Assembly: GCF_041381155.1 (NCBI RefSeq)
Contig: NC_091143.1
Location: forward strand, 35,330,679-35,394,678
From: Argopecten irradians
Taxonomy: Eukaryota > Mollusca > Bivalvia > Pectinida > Pectinidae
Reading direction: 5' to 3'
DNA: 64,000 nt
The notes below the pieces were generated by a model. That model saw nothing but the letters and a program-made list of their open reading frames with translations. It ran no database searches and was not told the origin of the DNA. A program made the translations under genes and the position numbers. Shown piece by piece: positions 2,721 through 56,016 of this stretch (positions are counted from its first letter, which is position 1; each line of letters opens with the position of its first letter).

Positions 2721-2723
2721 CTG

Positions 2724-21229: not shown

Positions 21230-21529
21230 CATCATTCCAAACTTTTAGTGTTAAAATTCGTACCAATATTGATAATAAATCTCATAGAATTACACTCGTG
21301 ATCATTTCCGCCTGTAAAAACAGGCATAAAAATCTCGCTATACATTTTACATCTACATGTAATTTCCCAACCCACACATTAAACTTTGAAACTGATTCAC
21401 CCTAAAAACACACCCAGTACGCTCCAAATCATGCACCTCTCTATGAAATATTATGCCCAAAAGGGGATTTCCAGAAATCTATTTTTAGTTTCGTTTTGCA
21501 GTAGACTGGTACACTGGCCTACCCATTAA

Positions 21530-22339
21530 GGTTCATGTAAGGGCTTTACCGTGATATTTTGCAAGCCTAAAACTCATTACTGTGCTGCAATTGAACAGAA
21601 TTAATTTCATTAATTGTTGGTATATACCCTGGCTAACTGTCAGTCTTACTGTTGATATGCAATGTTATGTTTGTTGTAAATGCAAATGGCTGCTTTAAAT
21701 GGCGGATCACAAATATAGCATGTAAGAAGACATTTTAATTGATACAAGTGCTCTTATATACAATATAAGGTACTCTGAACATGACAAGAAGACTATTTAC
21801 GAAAAAAATAGTTAAAATGTGGACTTTGAGGCTTTTTCCGGAAATTTGCATTTTTCGCCCCAAACAGATCGGTTGAACATTTTTTTTCCGTGAAGAGTCT
21901 TCTTGTCATGTTCAGAGTACCTTATGGTGTCTATAAGAACATTTGTATCAATTGAGATGGCTTCATATATGCGATATTTGTGATCCGCCATTTATAGCAG
22001 CCATTTGCATTTACTACAATAGGCTCCTGCGCTATTCGCTGGTGCGATTTTGCCAAACAAACTGTTGGAGTACCTGGCATAGTCACTACTGAACACGATA
22101 GCATGCTTATTTGGTGCCATCAATGCAATTCACACGAGCTCTGTCTTCTCCAGAAATATACATTTTTCTCTTATTTTACTGAAATTTACAAGCAGCTTCA
22201 CAAATTACATATCCACAGTAAGACTGACAGTTAGCACTGGTTCAAACCATCAATTAATGAAATTAGTTTTGTTCAATTGCAGCACAGTAATGACTTATAG
22301 GCTTGCAAACTATCACTGGTTAAAGCCTTTACATGAACC
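21530..22339. mobile_element. Fold-back DNA element with long inverted repeats, in the spacer of unit 1
   Basis: The 810-bp element starts GGTTCATGTAAGGGCTTTAC and ends with its inverse. The terminal arms match for about 90 bp. Further inverted pairs lie inside: GTAAATGCAAATGGCTGC and its inverse, and AAGGTACTCTGAACATGACA and its inverse near the centre. Nearly the whole element can therefore fold into one hairpin, with about 170 bp extra in the right arm. TTAA flanks both sides (21526-21529, 22340-22343); other units have CCCATAAAGCTGC at the matching point, so the insertion is specific to unit 1. TTAA suggests piggyBac-like, or TAA suggests Harbinger-like, mobilisation. No transposase is present. 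Confidence 0.88.
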
Positions 22340-22687
22340 TTAAGCTGCTATGCGAAACAATATGGGCGGACTGGTGTATCAGGTTATGTTGTTATGACAT
22401 AGCATGTAAGTATATTGATACCGAGATTTGATCAAGATACTAAAATGTCTTAAGAGCGAGCTCCAATATACTGTAGCAACTGTAATTAATTATCAGATCC
22501 TTATGCACTATTTTCTCGGATATAATCAAGAGAGTGAACAGCAGTAAATATCGGAGTACGCCAAGGTTCTCTTCTTGATTCACCTAAGTGGATGTACATG
22601 TTCAAACGCATGTGCATCTCATTTGCTGACACACTACGTTATTTAATAGACAAATAGACAATAATGATCAATGGAACTTAAGCAAAA

Positions 22688-22693
22688 TTTATT
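22688..22693 (-). terminator. Poly(A) signal of array gene copy 1
   Basis: AATAAA on the minus strand, about 165 bases after the stop codon at 22859. The equivalent AATAAA is present after the stop in the other units, either as TTTAAATAAATTTTGC (copies 2-6) or TTTAATAAATTTTGC (copies 7-9), so the 3' end is shared across the array. Confidence 0.6.
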
Positions 22694-22858
22694 AAAGGTG
22701 AATCATTTTAAAGAATTTTTTATAAACAAAGTCTAAATTCTTCATGTGTCCAATCCCTTACTGTGGTCAATAATTTATACATGTACGTGTCTGTTATCAA
22801 ATTATTCATGAAAAGATCGTGATCAAGATATACATTTCAGAACGTTTTGTTTATACAA

Positions 22859-24685
22859 TCAATGATCTAGAGGTTCGACTGTCGCTGTTTGGCGAGCAAT
22901 GCAGCAGAGAATATGTTTACGAATCCAATTCCTTCTGTTGTGAGCCTTTGTTGATTTATTATTTGTTTTCGCACTTAGGACGCTGTCGTTAGGTAATGTG
23001 TTCGTAGACTTCTTCTTTTCTTTCTGAAATAGAGAAACACTTTTTAGGTAAGTTAGTTGATATTTTCTGCCCATTTCTGTTTTTCGTGTGTATTTCTTTA
23101 GGTAAACAAAATAGAATGAATCACTTCGAATTTTGATTACCGATAGTAATGTACTAATATACTGACACTGAGATTGTTTTATCATATGACGTTAAACACA
23201 GTTTGCGAAGCGGACACCATATTGGCTGGATAATTAATATTAATATTTCTTCTGTCTTACGCCGACTTAAAAATAACAGAGATATGACTCTACCTTGGCG
23301 TACACCGTATTGACATTTAAAACAGATATTTGACCACTTACTGTAGTTGAGCTAAAATATTCTCTTGAGTTAAATGTACTCACTCCAAAAATTCTGTCAA
23401 AATAGCGCTTGAAAACATTTTTCTGTGCTTTCCCGCCGTCTTCATTCACAATCATAGCCACAAGAGGCTGGCCATCATTTTTGTTATCTGAAGCAGAAAG
23501 AGTTAGCGTGTTAGAAATAGTATTGATCACTTTACGATGATACATTTGTATATTAACCTGTAAAAATGAGTTTCGTGATTGTTAAAAAGTGCGCAGAATG
23601 TAAATTACAAATATTTATTTAGAACGAAATCCTGAACATGATTTTGAACGAAATTAAAAAAACGAAAGACGATAAATTAAGTTACCTCTAAAACATATAT
23701 AAATGTAAAGCAAAATTAGTACACGTACCTCTATCAGATTGATTTGTGCTTGTCATTTCTACTTCCGATTGGTCCATTATTCTGGCCATTATTTCGTCAG
23801 TGGGAGAAGTTTGCCCATGGCGAAGTGCTGAAACAGATCTGCCAATAGTAACATCAACAATATTGCCCAGATCCGTGTCATTTTCACTCATCGCTTCCTC
23901 CATCTTGTAGTGTGTTGGAGACGTTTGACCTTGTCTAAGAGCGGCTATGGACCGCTGGATAGTTAACCTAGCCAGGTCTTCAGCAGCCTGGTCCATCATT
24001 TCATCTGTTTCGGCCTTTCCTGTCATCTTATCGTCCTCTTTCAATTGATTTTTATCCATAATCTAGAATACCACAACCAAAGACTGGAATAAGTTTGTTA
24101 TCAAAATTCAAGATAATCGTATACATAGTCATGTAACAATTAAGGCTACTATTAGTGATCGAACTCGCGACCATTAGTGCTCTTGTCAGTAGTGTATCAA
24201 CACGAATTCCTACTACATCTTTTGTAAGACGAAGTTAATTATATAGAGGGTGATCTATACCAAGAAGCAGGGATCAAATTGCTGAAGCTTCAGTTGATAA
24301 GTTTTAAATGCTCAATAAAGTATAAGAAAATGTAATAAAAATAACTCATTGCGCACTGGACTAACATTGAAGCCATCGACTTTTCGAAATTCTTAATTTG
24401 CCAGCTCAGGGCGACTTTCTTAGTATGAAAATATTAAGAATCCCCATATGAAATATGTTGTAATTATTTGGTTATGCCCCGTAATTTTACTGGACTATAT
24501 TGATGTCGTTCGAATCGCAGCATAGGTTATCAAGTCTGACTCATCTAAATGAAAGGCGCCTGCGCTCGGTGATGGTGACAAACAAGTTGGATTTAAAACA
24601 TACCGTCTTGGATATTTACAGAGTATATTAACATATAAGATACACATTCAGTACTTACCTGTAGTTCATACAAAACATGAAACAT
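22859..24685 (-). CDS. Array gene copy 1: open, most diverged copy
   Basis: Exons run 24659-24685, 23729-24062, 23384-23487 and 22859-23023, with introns of 596, 241 and 360 bp. All donors (GTAAGT, GTACGT, GTGAGT) and acceptors (GTATTCTAG, TCTGCTTCAG, CTCTATTTCAG) are good and the phases agree. The product is 209 residues (199 from the second ATG) with no breaks seen. Against copy 6 it has about 15 replacement and 3 silent codon differences in exons 2-3, but 3 replacement and 6 silent in exon 4. Distinct residues include MTGKAE, AALRQGQ, ARIMDQ, KAQKNVFKRY and DRIFG. Its promoter block has TCTCGCGAGA at 24796 and two perfect TGACGTCA sites (24819, 24836). The family is not recognised. Confidence 0.75.
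24150..24230 (-). repeat. Possible SINE remnant in intron 1 of the array gene
   Basis: On the minus strand GAGCAC...GGTCGCGAGTTCGATCAC resembles a tRNA B box of the SINE type seen at 4725. It recurs in intron 1 of every unit (for example near 27840, 31580, 35300). No matching tail is recognisable, so it would be an old truncated copy fixed before the array expanded. Confidence 0.35.
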
Positions 24686-24759
24686 GCGAGTAGCAATTGA
24701 TAATTAAAGATTAATGTAAAATCCCAAATCGTTTTTCGCAGAGAAGTTTGACCAAGTCT

Positions 24760-24860
24760 GTTTGTTGTCATGAACAAAGAACAATAGATGGAAAATCTCG
24801 CGAGATGTAAAGCATTTGTGACGTCATAGAGTTTGTGACGTCATCCGATTGTGAATTGTC
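24760..24860 (-). promoter_or_regulatory. Promoter-like block of the array genes (copy 1 shown)
   Basis: It contains the palindrome TCTCGCGAGA at 24796-24805, and TGACGTCA (CRE) at 24819-24826 and 24836-24843, with an inverted CCAAT-like ATTGG partly overlapping the latter on its outer side in most copies. TCTCGCGAGA is a known animal core-promoter element, bound by BANP in vertebrates; CRE is the CREB/ATF site. The block sits 110-160 bp upstream of the first ATG in exon 1 in every unit. The box starts at 28519, 32259, 35978, 39691, 43419, 47131, 50862 and 55684 in copies 2-9. The first CRE is perfect only in copies 1, 5 and 8; the others have TGACGTTA. The start site itself cannot be seen. 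Confidence 0.7.
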
Positions 24861-25079
24861 AAAACGTGGTCGTGTGCCTTGGTGGGTGTTGAAACATGTT
24901 GTTTCCATTTTCCAGTTGCCAGTTAGTTTGCTTTTGTGATATCTGGCAAATAATTACGTTAAGTCTATGATTAGTATATACATGTACAACGTATAAGCGC
25001 ATGTGCTATTGTGGATTTCGTATAAAGCTATTTTATGAAGTAAACAAATGTTTTTGTTTGCTCGTCAATATATACATGT

Positions 25080-25275
25080 AAAGTGGTGAAATGTGTGTGT
25101 TGGGCGTCTTGGGCAGCATATACTTCAGTAAGATAACACTATAAACAGAAAAAGAGTTCCACTATCACAAGGAGACACAACATTAATATGGAGCAGCCTC
25201 CCAAAATATTGTAATCATGGAAGGCCGTCCTTAAATAACCCTGGCTGCCAATATATACATGTAGGTCATAAACCG
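25080..25275. repeat. Repeat family A segment inside the array unit (shown in unit 1-2 spacer)
   Basis: It contains CTTCAGTAAGATAACACTAT, ACTATCACAAGGAGACACAA, GGAGCAGCCTCCCAAAATAT and GGAAGGCCGTCCTTAAATAA, in the family A order. It recurs in each spacer (about 28810, 32535, 36255, 39975, 43700, 47415, 51140); the last copy is cut at the array edge (56016). The conserved 61-67-codon minus-strand frames here (starting MNNTKRTW or an extended form) are repeat sequence and not genes. Confidence 0.7.
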
Positions 25276-25610
25276 TCTGAACCAAACCAAGTCCGTTTTG
25301 TATTGTTCAAACCTTTATTAATTACAATATGTATTTAAAGTTTATTTTTTTATCAACATTATATGTCGATCGGTTAATTATCCATGTTTTGCATATGGTT
25401 ATCTGTTTTAATCAACATACAATGTAAATGATAAAAAGTGTTACAGAGCAGGCGTTGTATGTGTTGTTTACATACCAATCTGTTGTGGTAATCACTTTTC
25501 AGCTTATAAGTAGTTATAGGCCTAATTGTTACTAAAGATGACGTGATTTGTTTTCAGTATATAAAGAATGTACATATACATTTTGTGGCTGGAATGTTAA
25601 AGTCAATTTC

Positions 25611-25630
25611 TTTTGCAACGCGTTGCAAAA
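25611..25630. promoter_or_regulatory. Perfect 20-bp palindrome repeated in each unit
   Basis: TTTTGCAACGCGTTGCAAAA reads the same on both strands and is preserved in every spacer (for example 29335, 33077, 36796, 40508, 44238, 47947, 51678, within a few bases). It lies between the poly(A) end of one gene and the promoter of the next. Its role is unknown; it could be a protein-binding site or only a conserved piece of spacer. Confidence 0.5.
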
Positions 25631-26528: not shown

Positions 26529-28408
26529 TCAATGATCTAGAGGTTCCACTGTTGCTGTCTGTCGAACAAGGCAGCACAGGATATGTTTACGAATCCAATT
26601 CCTTCTGTTGTGAGTCTTTGTTGATTTATTATTTGTTTTCGCACTTAGGACGCTGTCGTTAGGTAATGTGTTCGTAGACTTCTTTTTTCTTTCTGAAAAA
26701 TAGAGAAACACTTTTCAGGTAAGTTAGTTGATATTTTCTGCCCATTTTCTGTTTTTCGTGTGTATTTCTTTAGGTAAACAAAATAGAATGAAGCACTTCG
26801 AATTTTGATTACCGATAGTAATGTATTAATATACTGACACTGAGATTGTTTTATCATATGACGTTAAACACAGTTTGCGAAGCGGACACCATATTGGCTG
26901 GATAATTGATATTAATATTTCTTCTGTCTTACGCCGACTTAAAAATAACAGAGATATGACTCCACCTTGGCGTACACCGTATTGGGATTTAAAACAGATA
27001 TTTGACCACTTACTGTAGTAGAGCTAAAATATTCTTTTGAGTTAAATGTACTCACTCTCACTCATTCTGTCAAATAGCGCTTGAAAAAGTTTTTCTGTGT
27101 TTTCCCGCCGTCTCCATTCACAATCGTAGCCACAAGAGGCTGGGCATCATTTTTGTTATCTGAAGCAGAAAAAGTTAGCGTGTTAGAAACTGGATTGATC
27201 ACTTTACGATGATACATTTGAATATTAACCTGTAAAAATGAGTTTCGTGATTGTTAAAAAGTGCGCAAAATGTAAATTACACATATCTATTTAGAACAAA
27301 ATCCTACATAATCAAATCATGTTATTTGAGTAATTATCAACGTCATATTTCTGCACGAAATTTAAAAACGAAAGACGATAAAATAAAGTTACCCCTAAAA
27401 CATATATAATGGTACAGCAAAATTAGTACACGTACCTCTATCAGATTGATTTGTGTTTGTCATTTCTACTTCCGATTGGTCCAACATTTTGGCTATTATT
27501 TCGTCAGTGGGAGAAGTTTGCCCTTGGCGAAGTGCTGAAACAGATCTGCCAATAGTAACATCTACAATATTGCCCAGATCCGTGTCATTTTCACTCATCG
27601 CTTCCTCCATCTTGTAGTGTGTTGGAGACGTTTGACCATGTTTAAGAGCCGCTATGGACCGCTGGATAGTTAACCTAGCCAGGTCTTCAGCAGCCTGATC
27701 CATCATTTCATCTGTTTCGGCCTTTTCTGTCATCTTATCGTCCTCTTTCAATTGATTTTTATCCATAATCTACAATACCACCACAAACGACTGGAATAAG
27801 TTTTTCATAGTCCAGTAATAGTTACAGCTACTATTTGTGATCGAACTCGCGACCATTGGTGCTCTTGTCAGTAGTGTATTAACACGAATTCCTACTACAT
27901 CTTTTATAAGGCCAAGCTAATCGTATAGAGGGTGATATATACCTAAAATGGAAGAAGTCAGGATCAAATTGCTGAAGCTTCAGTTGATAAGTTTGAAATG
28001 CTCAATAATTAGAAAGCACACTATTACTTCTAGTTCAGAAAAGTATAAGAAAATGTAATAAAAATAACTCATTGCGGACTGGTCTAACATTGGAGCCATC
28101 GACTTTTCGAAATTCTTAATTTGCCAGCTCAGGGCGACTTTCTTATTATGAAAATATTAAGAATCCCCATATGAAATATGTTGTAATTATTTGGTTATGC
28201 CCCGTAATTTTACTGGACTATATTCATGTCGTTCGAATTGCAGCATAGGTTATCAAGTCTGACTCATCTAAATGAAAGGCGCCTGCGCTCGGTAATGGTA
28301 ACAAACAAGTTGGATTTAAAACATACCGTCTTGGATATATACAGAGTATATTAACATATAAGATACACATTCAGTACTTACCTGAAGTTCATACAAAACA
28401 TGAAACAT
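26529..28408 (-). pseudogene. Array gene copy 2: broken in exons 3 and 4
   Basis: Exons map to 28382-28408, 27436-27769, 27056-27159 and 26529-26692. Exon 2 is open and carries the variant IIAKMLDQ, shared only with copy 5. In exon 3 a T is missing from the run in TATTTTGAC and a base is gained a few positions later, so the frame ends KRYLTE-stop after about 152 residues. Exon 4 independently lacks one base in its opening A/G tract. The splice signals and promoter box (28519) are intact, so a truncated product or a non-coding transcript remains possible. Confidence 0.8.
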
Positions 28409-30270
28409 GCGAGTAGCAATTGATAATTAAAGATTAATGTAAAATCCGAATTCGTTTTTCTCAGAGAAGTTTGACCAAGTCTGTTTGTTGCCATGAACAA
28501 AGAACAATAGATGGAAAATCTCGCGAGATGTAAAGCATTTGTGACGTTATAGAGTTTGTGACGTCATCCAATTGTGAATTGTCAAAACGTGGTCGTGCGC
28601 CTTGGTGGGTGTTGAAACATGTTGTTTCCATTTTCCAGTTGCCAGTTAGTTTGCTTTTGTGATATCTGGCAAATAATTACGTAAAGTCTATGATTAGTAT
28701 ATACATGTACAACGTATAAGCGCATGTGCTATTGTGGATTTCGTATAAAGCTATTTTATGAAGTAAACAAATGTTTTTGTTTGCTCGTCAGTATATACGT
28801 GTAAAGTGGTGAAATGTGTGTGTTGGGTGTCTTGGGCAGCATATACTTCAGTAAGATAACACTATAAACAGAACAAGAGTTCCACTATCACAAGGAGACA
28901 CAACATTAATATGGAGCAGCCTCCCAAAATATTGTAAACATGGAAGGCCGTCCTTAAATAACCCTGGCTGCCAATATATACATGTAGGACATAAACCGTC
29001 TGAACCAAACCAAGTCCGTTTTGTATTGTTCAAACCTTTATTAATTACCAATATGTATTTAAAGTTTATTTTTTATCAACATTATATGTCGATCGGTTAA
29101 TTATCCATGTTTTGCATATGGTTATCTGTTTTAATCAACATACAATGTAAATGATAAAAAGTGTTACAGAGCAGGCGTTGTATGTGTTGTTTACATACCA
29201 ATCTGTTGTGGTAATCACTTTTCAGCTTATAAGTAGTTATAGGCCTAATTGTTACTAAAGATGACGTGATTTGTTTTCAGTATATAAAGAATGTACATAT
29301 ACATTTTGTGGCTGGAATGTTAAAGTAAATTTCTTTTGCAACGCGTTGCAAAATTACAGTATGTGATTCGTTTAATAATAGTAGTTATGAATGGAAAATG
29401 TTTAAGATGTTTCGTCTTGCTAAACTTTTGAGGCGAGGACTGTCATCTTGTGCTGAATTCCGCACCAAATATTGACCATAAATTTCATAAAATTGGACTC
29501 TTGATTATCTCCGCCTGTCATTAACAGGCATGAAGCATAAAAATAATCTTTACACATTTAACATCTACAGGAATTGCCCAACTCACACATTAAACATTTG
29601 AAACTGATGAACCCGGAATACCCAATCAGCTGGCTCCAAAACATTCACCTCTCTATGAAATCTTATGCCCAAAAGGGGATTTCCAGAAATCTATATTTAG
29701 TTTTGTTTTGCGGTAGCCTGGTACCCTGACCTACCCATAAAGCTGCTATGCGGAACATTATGGGCGGGCTGGTGTATCAGGTTAGGTTGGTTCTGTGGTC
29801 TCCTATAACATAGCATGTAAGTGTGGTTTTACCGAGATTTGATCAAGACCCCTAAAATGTCTTAAGAGCGAGCTCCAATACTGTAATTAGTTATCAGATC
29901 CTTATGCGCTATTTTCTCGGATTTAAAGAGTGTTGTCTAAGAAAGAAAACACTCTCTTTATCGGAGTACGCCAAGGTTCTGTTCTTGATTCACCTAAGTG
30001 GAGATGTACATGTACACAAGTGCGTCTCATTTGCTGACACACTGCATTATTTAATAGACAAATAGACAATAATGATCAATGGAACTGAAAGCAAAATTTA
30101 TTAAAAGAAGCAAAATTTATTTAAAATTTCTTAAAAATAAAGTCTATATGCTCCATGTGTCCAATCGCTTGCTGTAGTCGATCATTTATACATGTACGTG
30201 TCTGTTATCAAATTATTCATGAAAACGATCGCGATCAAGTTCCTACATTTCTGAACGTTTTGTGTTCCAA

Positions 30271-32148
30271 TCAATGATCTAGAGGTTCCACTGTTGCTGT
30301 CTGTCGAACAAGGCAGCACAGGATATGTTTACGAATCCAATTCCTTCTGTTGTGAGTCTTTGTTGATTTATTATTTGTTTTCGCACTTAGGACGCTGTCG
30401 TTAGGTAATGTGTTCGTAGACTTTCTTCTTTTCTTTCTGAAATAGAGAAACACTTTTCAGGTAAGTTAGTTGATATTTTCTGCCCATTTCTGTTTTTCGT
30501 GTGTATTTCTTTAGGTAAACAAAATAGAATGAAGCACTTCGAATTTTGATTACCGATAGTAATGTATTAATATACTGACACTGAGATTGTATTATCATAT
30601 GACGTTAAACACAGTTTGCGAAGCGGACACCATATTGGCTGGATAATTAATATTAATATTTCTTCTGTCTTACGCCGACTTAAAAATAACAGAGATATGA
30701 CTCCACCTTGGCGTACACCGTATTGAGATTTAAAACAGATATTTGACCACTTACTGTAGTAGAGCTAAAATATTCTTTTGAGTTAAATGTACTCACTCTT
30801 AAAATTCTGTCAAAATAGCGCTTGAAAAAGTTTTTCTGTGTTTTCCCGCCGTCTCCATTCACAATTGTAGCCACAAGAGGCTGGGCATCATTTTTGTTAT
30901 CTGAAGCAGAAAGAGTTAGCGTGTTAGAAATTGTATTGATCACTTTACGATGATACATTTGAATATTAACCTGTAAAAATGAGTTTAGTGATTGTTAAAA
31001 AGTGCGCCAAATGTAAATTACACATATATATTTAGAACAAAATCCTACATAATCAAATCATGTTATTTGAGTAATTATCAGTCATATTTCTGCACGAAAT
31101 TTAAAAACGAAAGACGATAAAATAAAGTTACCCCTAAAAACATATATAATGGTACAGCAAAATTAGTACACGTACCTCTATCAGATTGATTTGTGTTTGT
31201 CATTTCTACTTCCGATTGGTACATCATTTTGGCCATTATTTCGTCAGTGGGAGAAGTTTGCCCTTGGCGAAGTGCTGAAACAGATCTGCCAATAGTAACA
31301 TCTACAATATTGCCCAGATCCGTGTCATTTTCACTCATCGCTTCCTCCATCTTGTAGTGTGTTGGAGACGTTTGACCATGTTTAAGAGCCGCTATGGACC
31401 GCTGGATAGTTAACCTAGCCAGGTCTTCAGCAGCCTGGTCCATCATTTCATCTGTTTCGGCCTTTTCTGTCATCTTATCGTCCTCTTTCAATTGATTTGT
31501 ATTCATAATCTACAATACCACCACAAACGACTGGAATAAGTTTGTCATAGTCCAGTAATAGTTAAAGCTACTATTTGTGATCGAACTCGCGACCATTGGT
31601 GCTCTTGTCAGTAGTGTATTAACACGAATTCCTACTACATCTTTTATAAGGCCAAGCTAATCGTATAGAGGGTGATATATACCTAAAATGGAAGAAGTCA
31701 GGATCAAATTGCTGAAGCTTCAGTTGATAAGTTTGAAATGCTCAATAATTAGAAAGCACACTATTACTTCTAGTTCAGAAAAGTATAAGAAAATGTAATA
31801 AAAATAACTCATTGCGGACTGGTCTAACATTGGAGCCATCGACTTTTCGAAATTCTTAATTTGCCAGCTCAGGGCGACTTTCTTATTATGAAAATATTAA
31901 GAATCCCCATATGAAGTATGTTGTAATTATTTGGTTATGCCCCGTAATTTTACTGGACTATATTCATGTCGTTCGAATTGCAGCATAGGTTATCAAGTCT
32001 GACTCATCTAAATGAAAGGCGCCTGCGCTCGGTAATGGTAACAAACAAGTTGGATTTAAAACATACCGTCTTGGATATTTACAGAGTATATTAACATATA
32101 AGATACACATTCAGTACTTACCTGAAGTTCATACAAAACATGAAACAT
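30271..32148 (-). pseudogene. Array gene copy 3: exon 4 frameshift, shortened product
   Basis: Exons map to 32122-32148, 31176-31509, 30797-30900 and 30271-30436. Exons 1-3 are open (exon 2 begins MNTNQ and has MYQSE, as in copy 4). One extra A in the opening tract of exon 4 changes KEKKKSTNT to KEKKKVYEHIT-stop, giving about 166 residues and losing the basic Cys-containing tail. The original exon 4 frame is still open after the indel. Promoter box at 32259. Whether this is a dead copy or a tail-less variant cannot be told from sequence alone. Confidence 0.7.
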
Positions 32149-43308: not shown

Positions 43309-45169
43309 GCGAGTAGCAATTGATAATTAAAGATTAATGTAAAATCCAAATTCGTTTTTTCCAGAGAAGTTTGACCAAGTCTGTTTGTTGCCATGAACAA
43401 AGAACAATAGATGGAAAATCTCGCGAGATGTAAAGCATTTGTGACGTTATAGAGTTTGTGACGTCATCCAATTGTGAATTGTCAAAACGTGGTCGTGCGC
43501 CTTGGTGGGTGTTGAAACATGTTGTTTCCATTTTCCAGTTGCCAGTTAGTTTGCTTTTGTGATATCTGGCAAATAATTACGTTAAGTCTATGATTAGTAT
43601 ATACATGTACAACGTATAAGCGCATGTGCTATTGTGGATTTCGTATAGAGCTATTTTATGAAGTAAACAAATGTTTTTGTTTGCTCGTCAGTATATATAC
43701 GTGTAAAGTGGTGAAATGTGTGTGTTGGGTGTCTTGGGCAGCATATACTTCAGTAAGATAACACTATAAACAGAACAAGAGTTCCACTATCACAAGGAGA
43801 CACAACATTAATATGGAGCAGCCTCCCAAAATATTGTAAACATGGAAGGCCGTCCTTAAATAACCCTGGCTGCCAATATATACATGTAGGACATAAACCG
43901 TCTGAACCAAACCAAGTCCGTTTTGTATTGTTCAAACCTTTATTAATTACAATATGTATTTAAAGTTTATTTTTTTATCAACATTATATGTCGATCGGTT
44001 AATTATCCATGTTTTGCATATGGTTATCTGTTTTAATCAACATACAATGTAAATGATAAAAAGTGTTACAGAGCAGGCGTTGTATGTGTTGTTTACATAC
44101 CAATCTGTTGTGGTAATCACTTTTCAGCTTATAAGTAGTTATAGGCCTAATTGTTACTAAAGATGACGTGATTTGTTTTCAGTATATAAAGAATGTACAT
44201 ATACATTTTGTGGCTGGAATGTTAAAGTAAATTTCTTTTGCAACGCGTTGCAAAATTACAGTATGTGATTCGTTTAATAATAGTAGTTATGAATGGAAAA
44301 TGTTTAAGATGTTTCGTCTTGTTAAACGTTTGAGGCGAGGACTGTCATCTTGTGCTGAATTCCGCACCAAATATTGACCATAAATTTCATAAAATTGGAC
44401 TCTTGATTATCTCCGCCTGTCATTAACAGGCATGAAGCATAAAAATAATCTTTACACATTTAACATCTACAGGAATTGCCCAACTCACACATTAAACATT
44501 TGAAACTGATGAACCCGGAATACCCAATCAGCTGGCTCCAAAACATTCACCTCTCTATGAAATCTTATGCCCAAAAGGGGATTTCCAGAAATCTACTTTT
44601 AGTTTCGTATTGCGGTAGCCTGGTACACTGGACTACCCATAAAGCTGCTATGCGGAACAATATGGGCGGGCTGGTGTATCAGGTTATGTGGTCTCCTATA
44701 ACATAGCATGTAAGTGTGGTTTTACCGAGATTTGATCAAGACCCCTAAAATGTCTTAAGAGCGAGCTCCAATATATTGTAGCAACTGTAATTAGTTATCA
44801 GAATTATGCGCTATTTTCTCGGATATAAAGAGTGTTGTCTAAGAAAGAAAACACTCTCTTTATCGGAGTACGCCAAGGTTCTGTTCTTGATTCACCTAAG
44901 TGGAGATGTACATGTACAAGTGCGTCTCATTTGCTGACACACTGCATTATTTAATAGACAAATAGACAATAATGATCAATGGAACTGAAAGCAAAATTTA
45001 TTAAAGATGAATCACTTTTAAGAATTTCTTAAAAATAAAGTCTATAATGCTCCATGTGTCCAATCGCTTGCTGTAGTCGATCATTTATACATGTACGTGT
45101 CTGTTATCAAATTATTCATGAAAACGATCGCGATCAAGTTCCTACATTTCTGAACGTTTTGTGTTCCAA

Positions 45170-47019
45170 TCAATGATCTAGAGGTTCGACTGTTGCTGTC
45201 TGTCGAACAAGGCAGCACAGGATATGTTTACGAATCCAATTCCTTCTGTTGTGAGTCTTTGTTGATTTATTATTTGTTTTCGCACTTAGGACGCTGTCGT
45301 TAGGTAATGTGTTCGTAGACTTATTCTTCTTTTCTTTCTGAAATAGAGAAACACTTTTCAGGTAAGTTAGTTGATATTTTCTGCCCATTTCTGTTTTTCG
45401 TGTGTATTTCTTTAGGTAAACAAAATAGAATGAAGCACTTCGAATTTTGATTACCGATAGTAATGTATTAATATACTGACACTGAGATTGTTTTATCATA
45501 TGACGTTAAACACAGTTTGCGAAGCGGACACCATATTGGCTGGATAATTAATATTAATATTTCTTCTGTCTTACGCCGACTTAAAAATAACAGAGATATG
45601 ACTCCACCTTGGCGTACACCGTATTGAGATTTAAAACAGATATTTGACCACTTACTGTAGTAGAGCTAAAATATTCTTTTGAGTTAAATGTACTCACTCT
45701 TAAAATTCTGTCAAAATAGCGCTTGAAAAAGTTTTTCTGTGTTTTCCCGCCGTCTTCATTCACAATCGTAGCCACAAGAGGCTGGGCATCATTTTTGTTA
45801 TCTGAAGCAGAAAGAGTCAGCGTGTTAGAAATTGGATTGATCACTTTACGATGATACATTTGTATATTAACCTGTAAAAATGAGTTTCGTGATTGTTAAA
45901 AAGTGCGCAAAATGTAAATTACACATATCTATTTAGAACGAAATCAAATCTGAACATAATTTTGCACGAAATTTAAAAACGAAAGACGATAAAATAAAGT
46001 TACCCCTAAAACATATATAATTGTACAGCAAAATTAGTACACGTACCTCTATCAGATTGATTTGTGTTTGTCATTTCTACTTCCGATTGGTCCATCATTT
46101 TGGCCATTATTTCGTCAGTGGGAGAAGTTTGCCCTTGGCGAAGTGCTGAAACAGATCTGCCAATAGTAACATCTACAATATTGCCCAGATCCGTGTCATT
46201 TTCACTCATCGCTTCCTCCATCTTGTAGTGTGTTGGAGACGTTTGACCATGTTTAAGAGCCGCTATGGACCGCTGGATAGTTAACCTAGCCAGGTCTTCA
46301 GCAGCCTGGTCCATCATTTCATCTGTTTCGGCCTTTTCTGTCATCTTATCGTCCTCTTTCAATTGATTTTTATCCATAATCTACAATACCACCACAAACG
46401 ACTGAATAAGTTTGTCATAGTCCAGTAATAGTTAAAGCTACTATTTGTGATCGAACTCGCGACCATTGGTGCTCTTGTCAGTAGTGTATTAACACGAATT
46501 CCTACTACATCTTTTGTAAGGCCAAGCTAATCGTATAGAGGGTGATATATACCTAAAATGGAAGAAGTCAGGATCAAATTGCTGAAGCTTCAGTTGATAA
46601 GTTTGAAATGCTCAATAAATAGAAAGCACACTATTACTTCTAGTTCAGAAAAGTATAAGAAAATGTAATAAAAATAACTCATTGCGGACTGGTCTAACAT
46701 TGAAGCCATCGACTTTTCGAAATTCTTAATTTGCCAGCTCAGGGCGACTTTCTTAGTATGAAAATATTAAGAATCCCCATATGAAATATGTTGTAATTAT
46801 TTGGTTATGCCCCGTAATTTTACTGGACTATATTCATGTCGTTCAAATCGCAGCATAGGTTATCAAGTCTGACTCATCTAAATGAAAGGCGCCTGCGCTC
46901 GGTAAGTGGTAGGAAACAAGTTGGATTTAAAACATACCGTCTTGGATATTTACAGAGTATATTAACATATAAGATACACATTCAGTACTTACCTGAAGTT
47001 CATACAAAACATGAAACAT
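45170..47019 (-). CDS. Array gene copy 7: open, one residue longer
   Basis: Exons map to 46993-47019, 46047-46380, 45698-45801 and 45170-45337. All are open. Exon 4 has a three-base gain in its opening tract (KEKKNKSTN), giving 210 residues; it is the only length change in this tract that keeps the frame. Exon 3 has NEDGGK, as in copies 1, 8 and 9. Intron 2 lacks the roughly 30-bp segment present in copies 2-6, as in copies 1 and 8. Promoter box at 47131. Confidence 0.75.
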
Positions 47020-48891
47020 GCGAGTAGCAATTGATAATTAAAGATTAATGTAAAATCCGAATTCGTTTTTTCTCAGAGAAGTTTGACCAAGTCTGTTTGT
47101 TGTCATGAACAAAGAACAATAGATGGAAAATCTCGCGAGATGTAAAGCATTTGTGACGTTATAGAGTTTGTGACGTCATCCAATTGTGAATTGTCAAAAC
47201 GTGGTCGTGCGCCTTGGTGGGTGTTGAAACATGTTGTTTCCATTTTCCAGTTGCCAGTTAGTTTGCTTTTGTGATATCTGGCAAATAATTACGTTAAGTC
47301 TATGATTAGTATATACATGTACAACGTATAAGCGCATGTGCTATTGTGGATTTCGTATAGAGCTATTTTATGAAGTAAACAAATGTTTTGTTGTTTGCTC
47401 GTCAGTATATACGTGTAAAGTGGTGAAATGTGTGTGTTGGGTGTCTTGGGCAGCATATACTTCAGTAAGATAACACTATAAACAGAACAAGAGTTCCACT
47501 ATCACAAGGAGACACAACATTAATATGGAGCAGCCTCCCAAAATATTGTAAACATGGAAGGCCGTCCTTAAATAACCCTGGCTGCCAATATATACATGTA
47601 GGACATAAACCGTCTGAACCAAACCAAGTCCGTTTTGTATTGTTCAAACCTTTATTAATTACAATATGTATTTAAAGTTTATTTTTTATCAACATTATAT
47701 GTCGATCGGTTAATTATCCATGTTTTGCATATGGTTATCTGTTTTAATCAACATACAATGTAAATGATAAAAAGTGTTACAGAGCAGGCGTTGTATGTGT
47801 TGTTTACATACCAATCTGTTGTGGTAATCACTTTTCAGCTTATAAGTAGTTATAGGCCTAATTGTTACTAAAGATGACGTGATTTGTTTTCAGTATATAA
47901 AGAATGTACATATACATTTTGTGGCTGGAATGTTAAAGTAAATTTCTTTTGCAACGCGTTGCAAAATTACAGTATGTGATTCGTTTAATAATAGTAGTTA
48001 TGAATGGAAAATGTTTAAGATGTTTCGTCTTGCTAAACTTTTGAGGCGGGACTGTCATCTTGTGCTGAATTCCGCACCAAATATTGACCATAAATTTCAT
48101 AAAATTGGACTCTTGATTATCTCCGCCTGTCATTAACAGGCATGAAGCATTAAAAATAATCTTTACACATTTAACATCTACAGGAATTGCCCAACTCACA
48201 CATTAAACATTTGAAACTGATGAACCCGGAATACCCAATCAGCTGGCTCCAAAACATTCATCTCTCTATGAAATCTTATGCCCAAAAGGGGATTTCCAGA
48301 AATCTATATTTTAGTTTTGTTTTGCGGTAGCCTGGTACCCTGACCTACCCATAAAGCTGCTATGCGGAACATTATGGGCGGGCTGGTGTATCAGGTTAGG
48401 TGGTTCTGTGGTCTCCTATAACATAGCATGTAAGTGTGGTTTTACCGAGATTTGATCAAGACCCCTAAAATGTCTTAAGAGCGAGCTCCAATATATTGTA
48501 GCAACTGTAATTAGTTATCAGATCCTTATGCGCTATTTTCTCGGATATAAAGAGTGTTGTCTAAGAAAGAAAACAACTTCTTTATCGGAGTACGCCAAGG
48601 TTCTGTTCTTGATTCACCTAAATGATGTACATGTACATGCATGTGCGTCTCATTTGCTGACACACTGCATTATTTAATAGACAAATAGACAATAATGATC
48701 AATGGAACTGAAAGCAAAATTTATTAAAGATGCATCACTTTTAAGAATTTCTTAAAAATAAAGTCTATATGCTCCATGTGTCCAATCGCTTGCTGTAGTC
48801 GATCATTTATACATGTACGTGTCTGTTATCAAATTATTCATGAAAACGATCGCGATCAAGTTCCTACATTTCTGAACGTTTTGTGTTCCAA

Positions 48892-50751
48892 TCAATGATC
48901 TAGAGGTTCGACTGTTGCTGTCTGTCGAACAAGGCAGCACAGGATATGTTTACGAATCCAATTCCTTCTGTTGTGAGTCTTTGTTGATTTATTATTTGTT
49001 TTCGCACTTAGGACGCTGTCGTTAGGTAATGTGTTCGTAGACTTCTTCTTTTCTTTCTGAAATAGATAAACACTTTTCAGGTAAGTTAGTTGATATTTTC
49101 TGCCCATTTCTGTTTTTCGTGTGTATTTCTTTAGGTAAACAAAATAGAATGAAGCACTTCGAATTTTGATTACCGATAGTAATGTATTAATATACTGACA
49201 CTGAGATTGTTTTATCATATGACGTTAAACACAGTTTGCGAAGCGGACACCATATTGGCTGGATAATTAATATTAATATTTCTTCTGTCTTACGCCGACT
49301 TAAAAATAACAGAGATATGACTCCACCTTGGCGTACACCGTATTGAGATTTAAAACAGATATTTGACCACTTACTGTAGTAGAGCTAAAATATTCTTTTG
49401 AGTTAAATGTACTCACTCTTAAAATTCTGTCAAAATAGCGCTTGAAAAAGTTTTTCTGTGTTTTCCCGCCGTCTTCATTCACAATCGTAGCCACAAGAGG
49501 CTGGGCATCATTTTTGTTATCTGAAGCAGAAAGAGTCAGCGTGTTAGAAATTGGATTGATCACTTTACGATGATACATTTGTATATTAACCTGTAAAAAT
49601 GAGTTTCGTGATTGTTAAAAAGTGCGCAAAATGTAAATTACACATATCTATTTAGAACGAAATCCTGAACATAATTTTGCACGAAATTTAAAAACGAAAG
49701 ACGATAAAATAAAGTTACCCCTAAAACATATATAATTGTACAGCAAAATAGTACACGTACCTCTATCAGATTGATTTGTGCTTGTCATTTCTACTTCCGA
49801 TTGGTCCATCATTCTGGCCATTATTTCGTCAGTGGGAGAAGTTTGCCCATGGCGAAGTGCTGAAACAGATCTGCCAATAGTAACATCTACAATATTGCCC
49901 AGATCCGTGTCATTTTCACTCATCGCTTCCTCCATCTTGTAGTGTGTTGGAGACGTTTGACCATGTCTAAGAGCGCTATGGACCGCTGGATAGTTAACCT
50001 AGCCAGGTCTTCAGCAGCCTGGTCCATCATTTCATCTGTTTCGGCCTTTTCTGTCATCTTATCGTCCTCTTTCAATTGATTTGTATCCATAATCTACAAT
50101 ACCACCACAAAAGACTGGAATAAGTTTGTTATCAAAATTCACGATAATCCAGTACATAGTCATGTTACAATTAAGGCTACTATTAGTGATCGAACTCGCG
50201 ACCATTGGTGCTCTTGTCAGTAGTGTATTAACACGAATTCCTACTACATCTTTTGTAAGGCCAAGTTAATTATATAGAGGGTGATCTAAATACCAAGAAG
50301 TCAGGATCAAATTGCTGAAGCTTCAGTTGATAAGTTTGAAATGCTCAATAATTAGAAAGCACACTATTACTTCTAGTTCAGAAAAGTATAAGAAAATGTA
50401 ATAAAAATAACTCATTGCGCACTGGTCTAACATTGAAGCCATCGACTTTTCGAAATTCTTAATTTGCCAGCTCAGGGCGACTTTCTTAGTATGAAAATAT
50501 TAAGAATCCCCATATGAAATATGTTGTAATTATTTGGTTATGCCCCGTAATTTTACTGGACTATATTCATGTCGTTCGAATCGCAGCATAGGTTATCAAG
50601 TCTGACTCATCTAAATGAAAGGCGCCTGCGCTCGGTAATGGTAACAAACAAGTTGGATTTAAAACATACCGTCTTGGATATTTACAGAGTATATTAACAT
50701 ATAAGATACACATTCAGTACTTACCTGAAGTTCATACAAAACATGAAACAT
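48892..50751 (-). pseudogene. Array gene copy 8: exon 2 frameshift, mosaic copy
   Basis: Exons map to 50725-50751, 49761-50093, 49417-49520 and 48892-49056. One base is missing in exon 2 (AGAGCGCTATGG where others have AGAGCCGCTATGG), so the frame leaves the family after RSIA and stops about 20 codons later. The rest is open from an internal Met (MEEAM, 49935), and exons 3 and 4 are intact. Exon 2, intron 2 and part of intron 1 carry copy 1-like features (LRHGQ, ARMM, TSTNQ, and the ATCAAAATTCACGATAAT segment), while exon 4 matches the inner copies. Promoter box at 50862, both CREs perfect. Confidence 0.8.
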
Positions 50752-52609
50752 GCGAGTAGCAATTGATAATTAAAGATTAATGTAAAATCCGAATTCGTTT
50801 TTCGCAGAGAAGTTTGACCAAGTCTGTTTGTTGTCATGAACAAAGAACAATAGATGGAAAATCTCGCGAGATGTAAAGCATTTGTGACGTCATAGAGTTT
50901 GTGACGTCATCCAATTGTGAATTGTCAAAACGTGGTCGTGCGCCTTGGTGGGTGTTGAAACATGTTGTTTCCATTTTCCAGTTGCCAGTTAGTTTGCTTT
51001 TGTGATATCTGGCAAATAATTACATTAAGTCTATGATTAGTATATACATGTACAACGTATAAGCGCATGTGCTATTGTGGATTTCGTATAGAGCTATTTT
51101 ATGAAGTAAACAAATGTTTTTGTTTGCTCGTCAGTATATACGTGTAAAGTGGTGAAATGTGTGTGTTGGGTGTCTTGGGCAGCATATACTTCAGTAAGAT
51201 AACACTATAAACAGAACAAGAGTTCCACTATCACAAGGAGACACAACATTGATATGGAGCAGCCTCCAAAAATATTGTTAACATGGAAGGCCGTCCTTAA
51301 ATAACCCTGGCTGCCAATATATACATGTAGGACATAAACCGTCTGAACCAAACCAAGTCTGTTTTGTATTGTTCAAACCTTTATTAATTACAATATGTAT
51401 TTAAAGTTTATTTTTTGATCAACATTATATGTCGATCGGTTAATTATCCATGTTTTGCATATGGTTATCTGTTTTAATCAACATACAATGTAAATGATAA
51501 AAAGTGTTACAGAGCAGGCGTTGTATGTGTTGTTTACATACCAATCTGTTGTGGTAATCACTTTTCAGCTTATAAGTAGTTATAGGCCTAATTGTTACTA
51601 AAGATGACGTGATTTGTTTTCAGTATATAAAGAATGTACATATACATTTTGTGGCTGGAATGTTAAAGTAAATTTCTTTTGCAACGCGTTGCAAAATTAC
51701 AGTATGTGATTCGTTTAATAATAGTAGTTATGAATGGAAAATGTTTAAGATGTTTCGTCTTGCTAAGCGTTTCAGGCGAGGACTGTCATCTTGTGCTGAA
51801 TTCCGCACCAAATATTGACCATAAATTTCATAAAATTGGACTCTTGATTATCTCCGCCTGTCATTAACAGGCATGAAGCATAAAAATAATCTTTACACAT
51901 TTAACATTTACAGGAATTGCCCAACTCACACATTAAACATTTGAAACTGATGAACCCGGAATACCCAATCAGCTGGCTCCAAAACATTCATCTCTCTATG
52001 AAATCTTATGCCCAAAAGGGGATTTCCAGAAATCTATATTTAGTTTTGTTTTGCGGTAGCCTGGTACTCTGACCTACCCATAAAGCTGCTATGCGGAACA
52101 TTATGGGCGGGCTGGTGTATCAGGTTAGGTTGGTTCTGTGGTCTCCTATAACATAGCATGTAAGTGTGGTTTTACCGAGATTTGATCAAGACCCCTGAAA
52201 TGTCTTAAGAGCGAGCTCCAATACTGTAATTAGTTATCAGATCCTTATGCGCTATTTTCTCGGATTTAAAGAGTGTTGTCTAAGAAAGAAAACACTCTCT
52301 TTATCGGAGTACGCCAAGGTTCTGTTCTTGATTCACCTAAGTGGAGATGTACATGTACAAGTGCGTCTCATTTGCTGACACACTGCATTATTTAATAGAC
52401 AAATAGACAATAGTGATCAATGGAACTGAAAGCAAAATTTATTAAAGATGCATCACTTTTAAGAATTTCTTAAAATTAAAGTCTATATGCTCCATGTGTC
52501 CAATCGCTTGCTGTAGTCGAGCATTTATACATGTACGTGTCTGTTATCAAATTATTCATGAAAACGATCGCGATCAAGTTCCTACATTTCTGAACGTTTT
52601 GTGTTCCAA

Positions 52610-55573
52610 TCAATGATCTAGAGGTTCCACTGTTGCTGTCTGGCGAGCAAGGCAGCAGAGAATATGTTTACGAATCCAATTCCTTCTGTTGTGAGTCTTT
52701 GTTGATTTATTATTTGTTTTCGCACTTAGGACGCTGTCGTTAGGTAAATGTGTTCGTAGACTTATTCTCCTCTTTCTGAAATAGAGATAAACACTTTTCA
52801 GGTAAGTTAGTTGATATTTTCTGCCCATTTCTGTTTTTCGTGTGTATTTCTTTAGGTAAACAAAATAGAATGAAGCACTTCGAATTTTGATTACCGATAG
52901 TAATGTATTAATATACTGACACTGAGATTGTTTTATCATATGACGTTAAACACAGTTTGCGAAGCGGACACCATATTGGCTGGATAATTAATATTAATAT
53001 TTCTTCTGTCTTACGCCGACTAAAAAATAACAGAGATATGACTCCACCTTGGCGTACACCGTATTGAGATTTAAAACAGATATTTGACCACTTACTGTAG
53101 TAGAGCTTAAATATTCTTTTGAGTTAAATGTACTCACTCCAAAAATTCTGTCAAAATTGCGCTTGAAAAAGTTTTTCTGTGTTTTCCCGCCGTCTTCATT
53201 CACAATCGTAGCCACAAGAGGCTGGGCATCATTTTTGTTATCTGAAGCAGAAAGAGTCAGCGTGTTAGACATTTGATTGATCACTTTACGATGATACATT
53301 TGTAATATTAACCTGTAAAAATGAGTTTCGTGATTGTTAAAAAGTGCGCAAAATGTAAATTACAACATACAGTAAAACCCCGTTATATCGCCACCTTCTG
53401 TTTTCCTAGATTTTGGCGATATATCGAGTTTGGCGGTATATCGGATTTGTCGCTGAAATCTTAATTAGGCCTAACTAAAGGTAGTCCCTCGGTGCCGTAC
53501 TGAAACAGACTTTCAAGTCAGTCTGTGGACTTGTACGGCCACTTCGTATTTTGTAATATGAATAGTTCCAAAATTAAAGTATTATGTCTTAAAAAGCATT
53601 TAACAATTTAATGTAACCAACTAAAACCAAACATGCGTTTGATTAGAAATTGCCAAAAATTCCACTAATTTTTCGTTACATGATATTTTTTTATCATTAT
53701 TTAAAACAAATGAGTTTTGCTGGAATTGATGTTGACCAATAGTTAAGTTATTTTTCTTTTGCAAATTGTTTCGAGAACGTGACCTTAAAAGAATATATTC
53801 TTAGCAAAAATCAAAACATTTTCCGGTAAATTTCTTCTCAGACAAGATTTTGATCTTACTAATAAACGGCGGATTAATCTGCACGTTTTAATAATATTTA
53901 TCATTTGAAATGCTAGAATGAAAGCAAAATTGAAAACATTTTAGTTTATATTAATGTTACAATTTCCATATATAAATTTTTTAAACGAGATAACGAGATT
54001 AATAGACTTGTTGGTTCCTTTTTGTCAATAAATAACTAAAGTTACGATAGTGCGTAAAAACACATGTACAGAAATGAGTTTTATATTCACCACAACTTGC
54101 GACACCTACCTGTAAAACAATAACAAAGGTGTACCATATTGTTAATTGATTTGTGTACACACGGTCGTACACGCGGCCATAGTCTGTGTAGCTGATTACC
54201 TGTCAGTCGGCAGTTGAGCACCTTACGAAAACATGTGTCCCTATCAACAATTTGGCGATATTAACGAGGTCATTATAGTGTTTATTTTAAATCATTTGTT
54301 CCGCAAATGTGATGGCGGATGGCGGTAGGCGGGTTTGGCGGTATAACGGGTGTAGTTGTATTGGAGGGAAATCCGTTCTGAATAAATTCATGGCGATAAG
54401 CGAGTTTGGCGGTAAAACGGGTGGCAATATAACGGGGTTTTACTGTATCTATTTAGAACAAAATCCTACATAAGCAAATCATGTTATTTGAGTAATTATC
54501 AACGTCATATTTCTGCACGAAATTTAAAAAACGAAAGACGATAAAATAATGTTACCCCCTAAAACATATATAATGGTACAGCAAAATTAGTACACGTACC
54601 TCTATCAGATTGATTTGTGCTTGTCATTTCTACTTCCGATTGGTACATCATTTTGGCCATTATTTCGTTAGTGGGAGAAGTTTGCCCTTGGCGAAGTGCT
54701 GAAACAGATCTGCCAATAGTAACATCTACAATATTGCCCAGATCCGTGTCATTTTCACTCATCGCTTCCTCCATCTTGTAGTGTGTTGGAGACGTTTGAC
54801 CATGTTTAAGAGCCGCTATGGACCGCTGGATAGTTAACCTAGCCAGGTCTTCAGCAGCCTGGTCCATCATTCCATCTATTTCGGCCTTTTCTGTCATCTT
54901 ATCGTCCTCTTTAAATTGATTTTTTATCCATAATCTAGAATACCACAACCAAAGACTGGAATAAGTTTGTCATAGTCCAGTAATAGTTAAAGCTACTATT
55001 TGTGATCGAACTCGCGACCATTGGTGCTCTTGTCAGTAGTGTATTAACACGAATTCCTACTACATCTTTTATAAGGCCAAGCTAATCGTATAGAGGGTGA
55101 TATATACCTAAAATGGAAGAAGTCAGGATCAAATTGCTGAAGCTTCAGTTGATAAGTTTGAAATGCTCAATAATTAGAAAGCACACTATTACTTCTACTT
55201 CAGAAAAGTATAAGAAAATGTAATAAAAATAACTCATTGCGGACTGGTCTAACATTGGAGCCATCGACTTTTCGAAATTCTTAATTTGCCAGCTCAGGGC
55301 GACTTTCTTATTATGAAAATATTAAGAATCCCCATATGAAATATGTTGTAATTATTTGGTTATGCCCCGTAATTTTACTGGACTATATTCATGTCGTTCG
55401 AATTGCAGCATAGGTTATCAAGTCTGACTCATCTAAATGAAAGGCGCCTGCGCTCGGTAGTGGTAGGAAACAAGTTGGATTTAAAACATACCGTCTTGGA
55501 TATTTACAGAGTATATTAACATATAAGATACACATTCAGTACTTACCTGAAGTTCATACAAAACATGAAACAT
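52610..55573 (-). pseudogene. Array gene copy 9: broken, with a transposon in intron 2
   Basis: Exons map to 55547-55573, 54600-54934, 53138-53241 and 52610-52775. An extra A near the start of exon 2 makes the usual start read MDKKSI-stop. However, the second, out-of-phase ATG of exon 1 (MFCMNF) would then read through into NQFKEDDK, so translation is not strictly excluded. Exon 4 has a changed opening (KEENKSTNT) and an extra T that gives FT-stop, removing the tail. Intron 2 is 1358 bp because of the insertion at 53370-54445. Promoter box at 55684. Confidence 0.8.
53370..54445. mobile_element. Tc1/mariner-type non-autonomous DNA transposon in intron 2 of copy 9
   Basis: It starts CAGTAAAACCCCGTTATATC and ends with the inverse of CAGTAAAACCCCGTTATATT, about 25 bp of terminal repeat, flanked by TA (53368-53369, 54446-54447). 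Copies without it read ACATATCTATTTAG at the same place. CAGT...AACCCCGTTAT ends are typical of pogo/Tigger-like members. Words of the form TTTGGCGGTATAWCGG repeat several times near both ends, including GGCGATATATCGAGTTTGGC on the left and TGGCGATAAGCGAGTTTGGC on the right. No transposase frame is visible in 1076 bp. Confidence 0.9.
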
Positions 55574-56016
55574 GCGAGTAGCAATTGATAATTAAAGATT
55601 AATGTAAAATCCAAATTCGTTTTTCTCAGAGAAGTTTGACCAAGTCTGTTTGTTGCCGTGAACAAAGAACAATAGATGGAAAATCTCGCGAGATGTAAAG
55701 CATTTGTGACGTTATAGAGTTTGTGACGTCATCCAATTGTGAATTGTCAAAACGTGGTCGTGCGCCTTGGTGGGTGTTGAAACATGTTGTTTCCATTTTC
55801 CAGTTGCCAGTTAGTTTGCTTTTGTGATATCTGGCAAATAATTACGTAAAGTCTATGATTAGTATATACATGTACAACGTATAAGCGCATGTGCTATTGT
55901 GGATTTCGTATAGAGCTATTTTATGAAGTAAAAAATGTTTTGCTTGCTCGTCAGTATATACACGTAAACTGGTGGAATGTGTGTGTTGGTTGTCTTGGGC
56001 AGCATATGCTTCAGTA

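Follow-up and report, generated by a model that had tools for sequence, protein, structure and literature searches.

A nine-copy tandem array of a small four-exon gene in Argopecten irradians, probably a gene-bearing macrosatellite

Gene-bearing macrosatellites such as RS447 (USP17), D4Z4 (DUX4) and the TAF11-Like array are described as kilobase-scale units that are arranged head to tail at few genomic locations, with an open reading frame in each unit (PMC3018141). For RS447, a functional promoter has also been reported. Tandem gene arrays with mixed copies are also known from the Drosophila Stellate/Su(Ste) system (PMC7874207 and other accounts). Lastly, a consensus of LxxxAxxIVxxAIxxA has been given for the helices of A-kinase anchoring proteins (AKAPs) (PMC3682517).

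The locus described here, in a stretch of 64,000 nucleotides from the bay scallop (the window), resembles the human macrosatellites in that it consists of kilobase-scale head-to-tail units found at few loci. Each unit contains a reading frame with its exon set and a promoter element (nine of nine units), and the full frame is retained in five of the nine. It differs from the human examples in that splicing is needed to join the open reading frame from several exons, the host is a non-human one, the copy number of nine is low and the frames are often broken. The likeness to Stellate/Su(Ste), a system marked by testis, CK2 and piRNA features, lies in array anatomy.

Anatomy of the array and its promoter

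Self-comparison of the window and a blastn search with one unit against it placed the nine units in a single array, array A (21255-56018, minus strand), which bears out the original prediction of a nine-copy head-to-tail array. The gene strand, which had not been given before, is the minus strand. The spacings between promoter elements are 3723, 3740, 3719, 3713, 3728, 3712, 3731 and 4822 bases, so that the predicted unit size of 3.71-3.74 kb holds for seven of the eight spacings and fails for one of 4.82 kb. The latter reflects some 1.08 kb of sequence inserted into the second intron of U9, seen as a gap between unit matches (53370-54445). U1 carries an insertion of its own at 21527-22341, a TTAA-flanked, MITE-like inverted repeat that was recognised from a gap between unit matches and an inverted repeat in the self-comparison, its ends being set by eye.

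All nine genes are on the minus strand. Five have an open frame: U1 (22859-24805; exons 2, 3 and 4 at 23729-24062, 23384-23487 and 22859-23023), U4 (33990-35987; 34895-35228, 34515-34618 and 33990-34154), U5, our reference unit (37706-39700; 38609-38942, 38231-38334 and 37706-37870), U6 (41433-43428; 42337-42670, 41958-42061 and 41433-41597) and U7 (45170-47140; 46047-46380, 45698-45801 and 45170-45337), the last with one additional codon. The exon-1 donor lies after 24659 in U1, which has its CGCG element at 24796-24805, and after 39554 in U5. The other four are frameshifted, namely U2 (26529-28528; 27436-27769, 27056-27159 and 26529-26694) in exon 3, U3 (30271-32268; 31176-31509, 30797-30900 and 30271-30436) in exon 4, U8 (48892-50871; 49761-50093, 49417-49520 and 48892-49056) in exon 2, and U9 (52610-55693; 54600-54934, 53138-53241 and 52610-52775) early in exon 2. 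The claim of a complete four-exon gene in every copy is correct for the anatomy, which is present in nine of nine units, but not for the 209-residue product, which is open in just four of them (U1, U4, U5 and U6), with a 210-residue version in U7. The breaks in U2, U3 and U9 each involve a single base within a homopolymer run and may have arisen in the assembly; the shifted peptide of U8 is also encoded by one copy of a second array, array B.

Other predicted features were confirmed. Donor and acceptor dinucleotides are found at the proposed splice sites in all nine units, and the first AATAAA follows the stop codon at 149-167 nt in each of them, at a chance level of 37% of random 350-nt windows containing this signal. 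No tRNA gene (ARAGORN) and no RNA family (Rfam) was found in the window. The translation start appears to differ from that implied by the 209-residue product: exon 1 contains an in-frame ATG that is probably not used for initiation, and a 199-residue product from the ATG in exon 2 is probably the better candidate, because in both paralogs on C2 the ATG of exon 2 is present and is preceded by an in-frame TGA, as read by eye in an inferred exon 1.

Each copy also has the predicted promoter-like block. Each of the nine units has a single exact copy of the palindrome TCTCGCGAGA, which is absent from the rest of the window (in shuffled sequences the mean was 0.03 and the maximum 1). It precedes the exon-1 donor by 137-138 bases (39691-39700 in U5), with TGACGTCA sites nearby, and CRE-like sites are present in the promoter of every unit. 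We propose that the promoter is of the TATA-less type. A 29-base block around TCTCGCGAGA has 31 exact matches in the genome (14 on C10, 12 on C462, 4 on C14 and 1 on C11), all of them located at copies of this gene family, and a reversed-pattern control gave none.

These searches bear on the idea that the unit represents a mobile element, or a transposon-derived satellite, with a captured gene. Short words that look reverse-transcriptase-like occur in intron 3 and in the 3' region. However, neither the corresponding open reading frame in intron 3 nor those at 18704-19525 had a convincing Pfam match (best E 0.013), and a 447-base stretch of promoter and exon-1 DNA is not dispersed, since 37 of at least 38 genomic places lie in arrays and one on C11; these counts are lower bounds, as the search skips very common words. 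This stretch was the sole non-coding part used for the dispersal test, other parts of the unit being searched as protein. We consider a mobile origin barely credible.

Relatives elsewhere in the genome

The assembly searched comprises 846 Mb in 1508 contigs. Relatives of the array gene were found in array B, 60 kb from array A, on the unplaced contig C462, in an array on C14 and as a gene pair on C2. The C14 sister array is tandem, but its units lack exon 2 and their exon 3 is not in frame; it carries tRNA-His genes. In total, the full frame is kept in 9 of the 30 exon-2-bearing copies or pieces found.

Could the array be an artefact of assembly, in which copies were multiplied or haplotypes set side by side? 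The one observation in this direction concerns C462. Its eight copies share 99.3-99.9% identity among themselves and 99.1-99.4% with a single array-B copy, and the contig and array B are collinear for 6-7 kb. C462 is therefore probably another allele, or an incompletely assembled piece, of array B. This hints, in the one assembly examined, at a longer array-B allele. Array A itself does not behave in this manner: units U1 to U8 differ from each other by 0.7-7.1%, and U1 and U9 have their private insertions. In the alignment of the gene part, which was made for U1 to U8 and leaves out U9, identities were 96.6-99.3% among U2 to U8 and 92.9-95.6% between U1 and U2 to U8. Array B as a haplotype duplicate of array A was considered and rejected. 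The two arrays have a common right flank, the identity of which falls from 97% to about 80-85% across 11 kb, and of the 12.4 kb to the left of array B, only two segments (131 and 170 bases) match the left flank in the window. An artefact is thus improbable.

C462 also contains an inverted junction. Together with the mixture of intact and broken copies and the CRE-like promoter sites, this would fit a selfish or germline array of the Stellate kind, where small RNAs made from broken or inverted copies would restrain a tandemly amplified derivative of a signalling protein. The junction, however, looks like a fold-back of a read, the sequence past it being poor, and we regard such a system as very improbable here.

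Constraint on the family and apparent decay in the arrays

Comparisons between distant members of the family show, on few codons, a long-standing constraint on the protein. For exon 2 of U5 and the C2 genes, dN was 0.52, with a dS of about 2.8 in one comparison and saturation in the other. The pN/pS values for the 23 codons of exon 4 were 0.29 against C14, 0.28 against C2 and 0.16 against C11. Between the two C2 genes pN/pS was 0.56, a modest constraint.

Within the arrays, piN/piS was 0.96 (17 of the 30 copies, 21 variant codon changes), and among 25 copies 35 of 37 gap patterns in coding sequence were not a multiple of three, as compared to 82 of 100 in introns. These small counts point to a present constraint on the array copies that is apparently weak. 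The proportion of variable columns was 9.6% in exon 2, 21.2% in exon 3, and 21.3%, 25.9% and 8.1% in introns 1, 2 and 3, respectively. In two comparisons with U5, exon 2 diverged by 3.6% and introns 1 and 2 by 5.3-12.0%. The low variability of exon 2 relative to introns 1 and 2 is a point against relaxed constraint. U5 and U1 differed by 1.0% in the upstream part, by 5.4% in intron 1 and by 13.1% at their 3' ends, and intron 3 (2.8%) was below exon 3 (8.7%).

Our best reading of the array, with a probability of roughly 0.6, is a gene-bearing macrosatellite on which constraint has relaxed. A four-exon gene, complete and equipped with a promoter, would have been duplicated in tandem, and its copies would then have spread and been shuffled by unequal exchange and gene conversion, as suggested by the mosaic identities between units. 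Some copies may stay intact and others decay, because constraint is seemingly weak.

The original prediction had favoured dosage demand or diversification, meaning that several copies are expressed and selected and that the broken ones represent turnover. This explanation can draw on the five open copies, the promoter and splice sites retained in all nine, the ancient constraint on the family, the low variability of exon 2, and the existence of a second array as well as the near-identical copies on C462. Most tests did not support it: four of the nine copies are frameshifted and only 9 of 30 have the full frame, the piN/piS within the arrays is 0.96, and the C14 array persists in tandem with exon 2 missing and exon 3 shifted out of frame. 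With about half of the copies broken, recent copying and drift are a better fit than a tuned increase in dose. We therefore consider adaptive amplification unlikely, albeit worth keeping in mind.

A possible anchoring function

As stated in the original prediction, the protein is not recognised: no Pfam family and no PDB relative was found for the product. The best matches, with E values of 0.013 or worse, were treated as noise. Four peptide words from the window protein had no match in a literature text search. AKAP or RII-binding models were absent from the Pfam matches at E values up to 10; a curated family model is not required of AKAPs, whose motif is short.

AKAP7/AKAP18 alpha is a small membrane AKAP. 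The C2 paralogs resemble it in having a putative amphipathic helix that fits the AKAP consensus and a cysteine pair in a hydrophobic and basic setting, but they have several such helices instead of one, and the cysteine pair is near the C-terminus instead of the N-terminus. This likeness is one of features, and binding would be a prediction from it. In a scoring scheme for AKAP-type helices, the weights of which were picked after the sequences had been seen, each C2 paralog has three windows with scores of 11-12 and a relic at C2:51803 has two with a score of 11. The window protein (U5) scored 9 and 8, the former being reached by 0.5% of its own shuffles, and had no match to a broader AKAP-type pattern. 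In a control with 64 six-frame open reading frames of at least 200 residues from E. coli, none of 24238 windows reached 11 and 8 of the 64 frames reached 9. Among five AKAP helices, three reached only 9, 7 and 5. Amino acid changes in the C2 pair (2 of 48 within the helices, 17 of 130 elsewhere) show no significant deficit in the helices (Fisher p-value of 0.105). AlphaFold2 models of exon 2 from U5 and a C2 paralog were poor (pLDDT 55), with values of 79-87 for the first 30 residues of the paralog. A C-terminal ILCC is common to the family, and the genome has six RIIa-domain matches.

Our best functional guess, a tentative one that is weaker for the window copies, would be an AKAP-like, membrane-tethered role for a small docking protein of helical structure. 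The amphipathic helices of the C2 paralogs may bind PKA regulatory subunits, or relatives of these, at their docking/dimerisation domains, and the basic C-terminal tail with its ILCC pair may tether the protein to the membrane by acylation; the window copies would be a reduced version with two weaker helices. More doubtful is the fuller proposal that small PKA-docking proteins, tethered to the membrane and with several AKAP-type helices in tandem, form an undescribed family, of which one branch became an expanding macrosatellite and another, having lost its gene, persists as a tandem array with tRNA-His genes.

The gene is small, anciently conserved and undescribed. If it is true that the helices bind PKA docking domains, an undescribed family of anchoring proteins would be added. 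The one genome presents a series, from a constrained older gene pair, via partly intact arrays, to an array of a degraded gene that persists with a tRNA gene, and it offers a way to examine whether selection on the product is required for tandem expansion.

Layout and promoter of the array

Self-comparison and a one-unit search placed a head-to-tail array, array A, at about 21255-56018 of the window, which spans C10:35330679-35394678, with the gene on the minus strand. Its nine units (U1-U9) were counted from nine TCTCGCGAGA promoter elements in the window, the spacings of which are 3723, 3740, 3719, 3713, 3728, 3712, 3731 and 4822 bases. The original prediction of units of 3.71-3.74 kb holds for seven of the eight spacings but not for the last one, which is lengthened by a 1.08-kb (approximate size) insertion in intron 2 of U9 (window 53370-54445). 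U1 carries a MITE-like insertion with inverted repeats and flanking TTAA (window 21527-22341). TCTCGCGAGA is described as the CGCG element of vertebrate TATA-less promoters (PMC6192621). In every unit it lies upstream of the donor of exon 1, at a distance of 137-138 bases, in line with the promoter-like block predicted for each copy. The shared splice sites were also recovered, the splice dinucleotides being present in 9/9 units. TGACGTCA sites adjoin TCTCGCGAGA, and 12 of the 14 sites in the window fall inside units, with at least one per unit. A poly(A) signal is present 149-167 nt past the stop codon in 9/9 units, which should be read against the occurrence of AATAAA in 37% of random 350-nt stretches.

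Elsewhere in the window, an inverted fragment (18142-18259) is 78-80% identical to the unit region upstream of the promoter. Two long ORFs on the minus strand (18704-19525) look like the remains of a LINE reverse transcriptase, and a Pfam search with these ORFs gave no convincing match. Lastly, an open frame of 126 codons on one strand and another of 120 codons on the opposite strand overlap a 33-bp minisatellite of 12.8 copies (2721-3136).

Relatives across the genome

A protein search of the genome, which is eukaryotic and comprises 846 Mb across 1508 contigs, returned at least 129 exon-level matches with E-values up to 10. Besides the nine copies of array A on contig C10, the family is represented by five copies in array B on the same contig (C10:35446-35463k), sixteen exon-2 copies or pieces on the unplaced 56-kb contig C462, eight units on C14, a pair of related genes on C2 that lie about 1.07 Mb apart on opposite strands, and relics at C2:51803 and C11:39.13M. 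Arrays A and B have a common right flank, with identities of 96.8% near the array and, outward, 93.7, 88, 82-84 and 80-85%. Across the 12.4 kb examined to the left of array B, only one piece of 131 bases and another of 170 match the left flank of array A. A tandem repeat of another kind, which matches itself over stretches of about 0.9 kb, adjoins array B on the left (C10:35443-35446.4k).

C462 probably represents another allele of array B, or else an unresolved segment of it, as judged from identity, order and collinearity. Eight of its units are 99.1-99.4% identical to the array-B copy c10b_6702, one further unit is 99.1% identical to the neighbouring copy c10b_10462 with the order being the same, and collinear matches of 6-7 kb are 97.5-98.2% identical. 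The orientation of the array in C462 flips at a fold-back at 44.81 kb, where the arms are 84% identical and the sequence of the inverted part is poor; the inverted part past this point is probably an assembly or read artefact.

On C14, tandem units of about 3 kb (C14:35333000-35363000) combine a family relic with the promoter block. The promoter/exon-1 block is retained in all eight units, as are remnants of exons 3 and 4, with the former of these exons out of frame in 8/8, and no exon 2 was found in this array by protein search or in the one unit that was fully read. ARAGORN detected eight tRNA-His genes across the same region, one after each of the first seven units and the eighth about 7 kb past the last unit; three of these were confirmed by Rfam (62.2 bits). 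The C14 tandem array persists without need of the protein.

Gene model and possible role of the protein

The predicted spliced product was recovered with 209 residues in U1, U4, U5 and U6, and with 210 residues in U7. U1 was counted by the full gene model, since its BLAST match stopped early and hence looked short. Frameshifts are present in U2, U3, U8 and U9. Those in U2, U3 and U9 are single-base changes within homopolymers, and they may be assembly errors. As the shifted peptide of U8 is identical to that of c10b_14175 in array B, the U8 shift is probably real. Altogether, full frames are found in 5/9 copies of array A, 1/5 of array B and 3/16 on C462. A product of 199 residues that starts in exon 2 is better supported, because the C2 paralogs have the exon-2 ATG and, by eye, an in-frame TGA upstream of it in the inferred exon 1. 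An earlier out-of-frame ATG was seen by eye within exon 1 in 8/9 units.

The description of the protein as unrecognised stands, as searches with the family protein matched no Pfam family and no relative in the PDB. Structure models are helical, with low confidence. Exon 2 encodes repeats at a 38-residue spacing with a core like IxRSxxAxRxGQTSPT, of which there are two in the window copies and three, plus an extra N-terminal helix, in the C2 paralogs. A C-terminal KHILCC is common to the C10, C2 and 7/8 C14 copies and partial in C11, and we infer that its Cys pair is acylated. The AKAP consensus LxxxAxxIVxxAIxxA, as given in PMC3682517, was scored with weights picked once the sequences had been seen; the C2 paralogs each have three fitting stretches with scores of 11-12, the C2:51803 relic has two with a score of 11, and the scores in U5 are 9 and 8. 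Among 64 six-frame E. coli ORFs of at least 200 aa used as a control, 0/24238 windows reached 11 and 8 ORFs reached 9; AKAP helices scored 13, 12, 9, 7 and 5. There are six RIIa-domain matches in the genome. Our guess is that the family might serve in membrane-tethered PKA docking, and the C2 paralogs give this guess a firmer basis than the window copies do.

Past and present constraint

Comparisons among the C10, C2, C14 and C11 sequences indicate that the family was formerly a constrained protein. For exon 2, U5 and the C2 paralogs differ with a dN of 0.52 and a dS of 2.8 versus one paralog and saturated versus the other. For the 23 codons of exon 4, pN/pS was 0.28-0.29 versus C2 and C14, and 0.16 versus C11; between the two C2 genes it was 0.56. 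Within the arrays, the mean piN/piS of exon 2 was 0.96 in 17 standard-length copies, 13 of the 30 copies having been left out for length changes or truncation. Gap patterns that are not a multiple of three made up 35/37 in coding sequence versus 82/100 in introns (25 copies, without U9 because of its insertion and without four copies missing exons), and gap density was 61 per kb in coding exons versus 80 per kb in introns, counts that stem partly from the poor end of C462.

Variable columns amounted to 9.6% in exon 2, 21.2% in exon 3 and 15.2% in exon 4, and to 21.3%, 25.9% and 8.1% in introns 1, 2 and 3, respectively. The lower value of exon 2 compared to introns 1 and 2 counts against relaxation, an argument tempered by the values of exon 3, exon 4 and intron 3, and exon 2 of the array copies may be under some constraint. 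When U5 was compared with U1 or with a C462 unit, divergence in intron 3 and the upstream region was below that of all coding exons; between U1 and the C462 unit, it was lowest in exon 2. This pattern along the unit is ascribed more to mosaic conversion than to selection on the product.

In anatomy, the array is comparable to RS447 and D4Z4, as portrayed in PMC3018141. We read it as a gene-bearing macrosatellite on an old protein family, undescribed as judged by searches of Pfam, the PDB and the literature, and the array is now probably under weak constraint.
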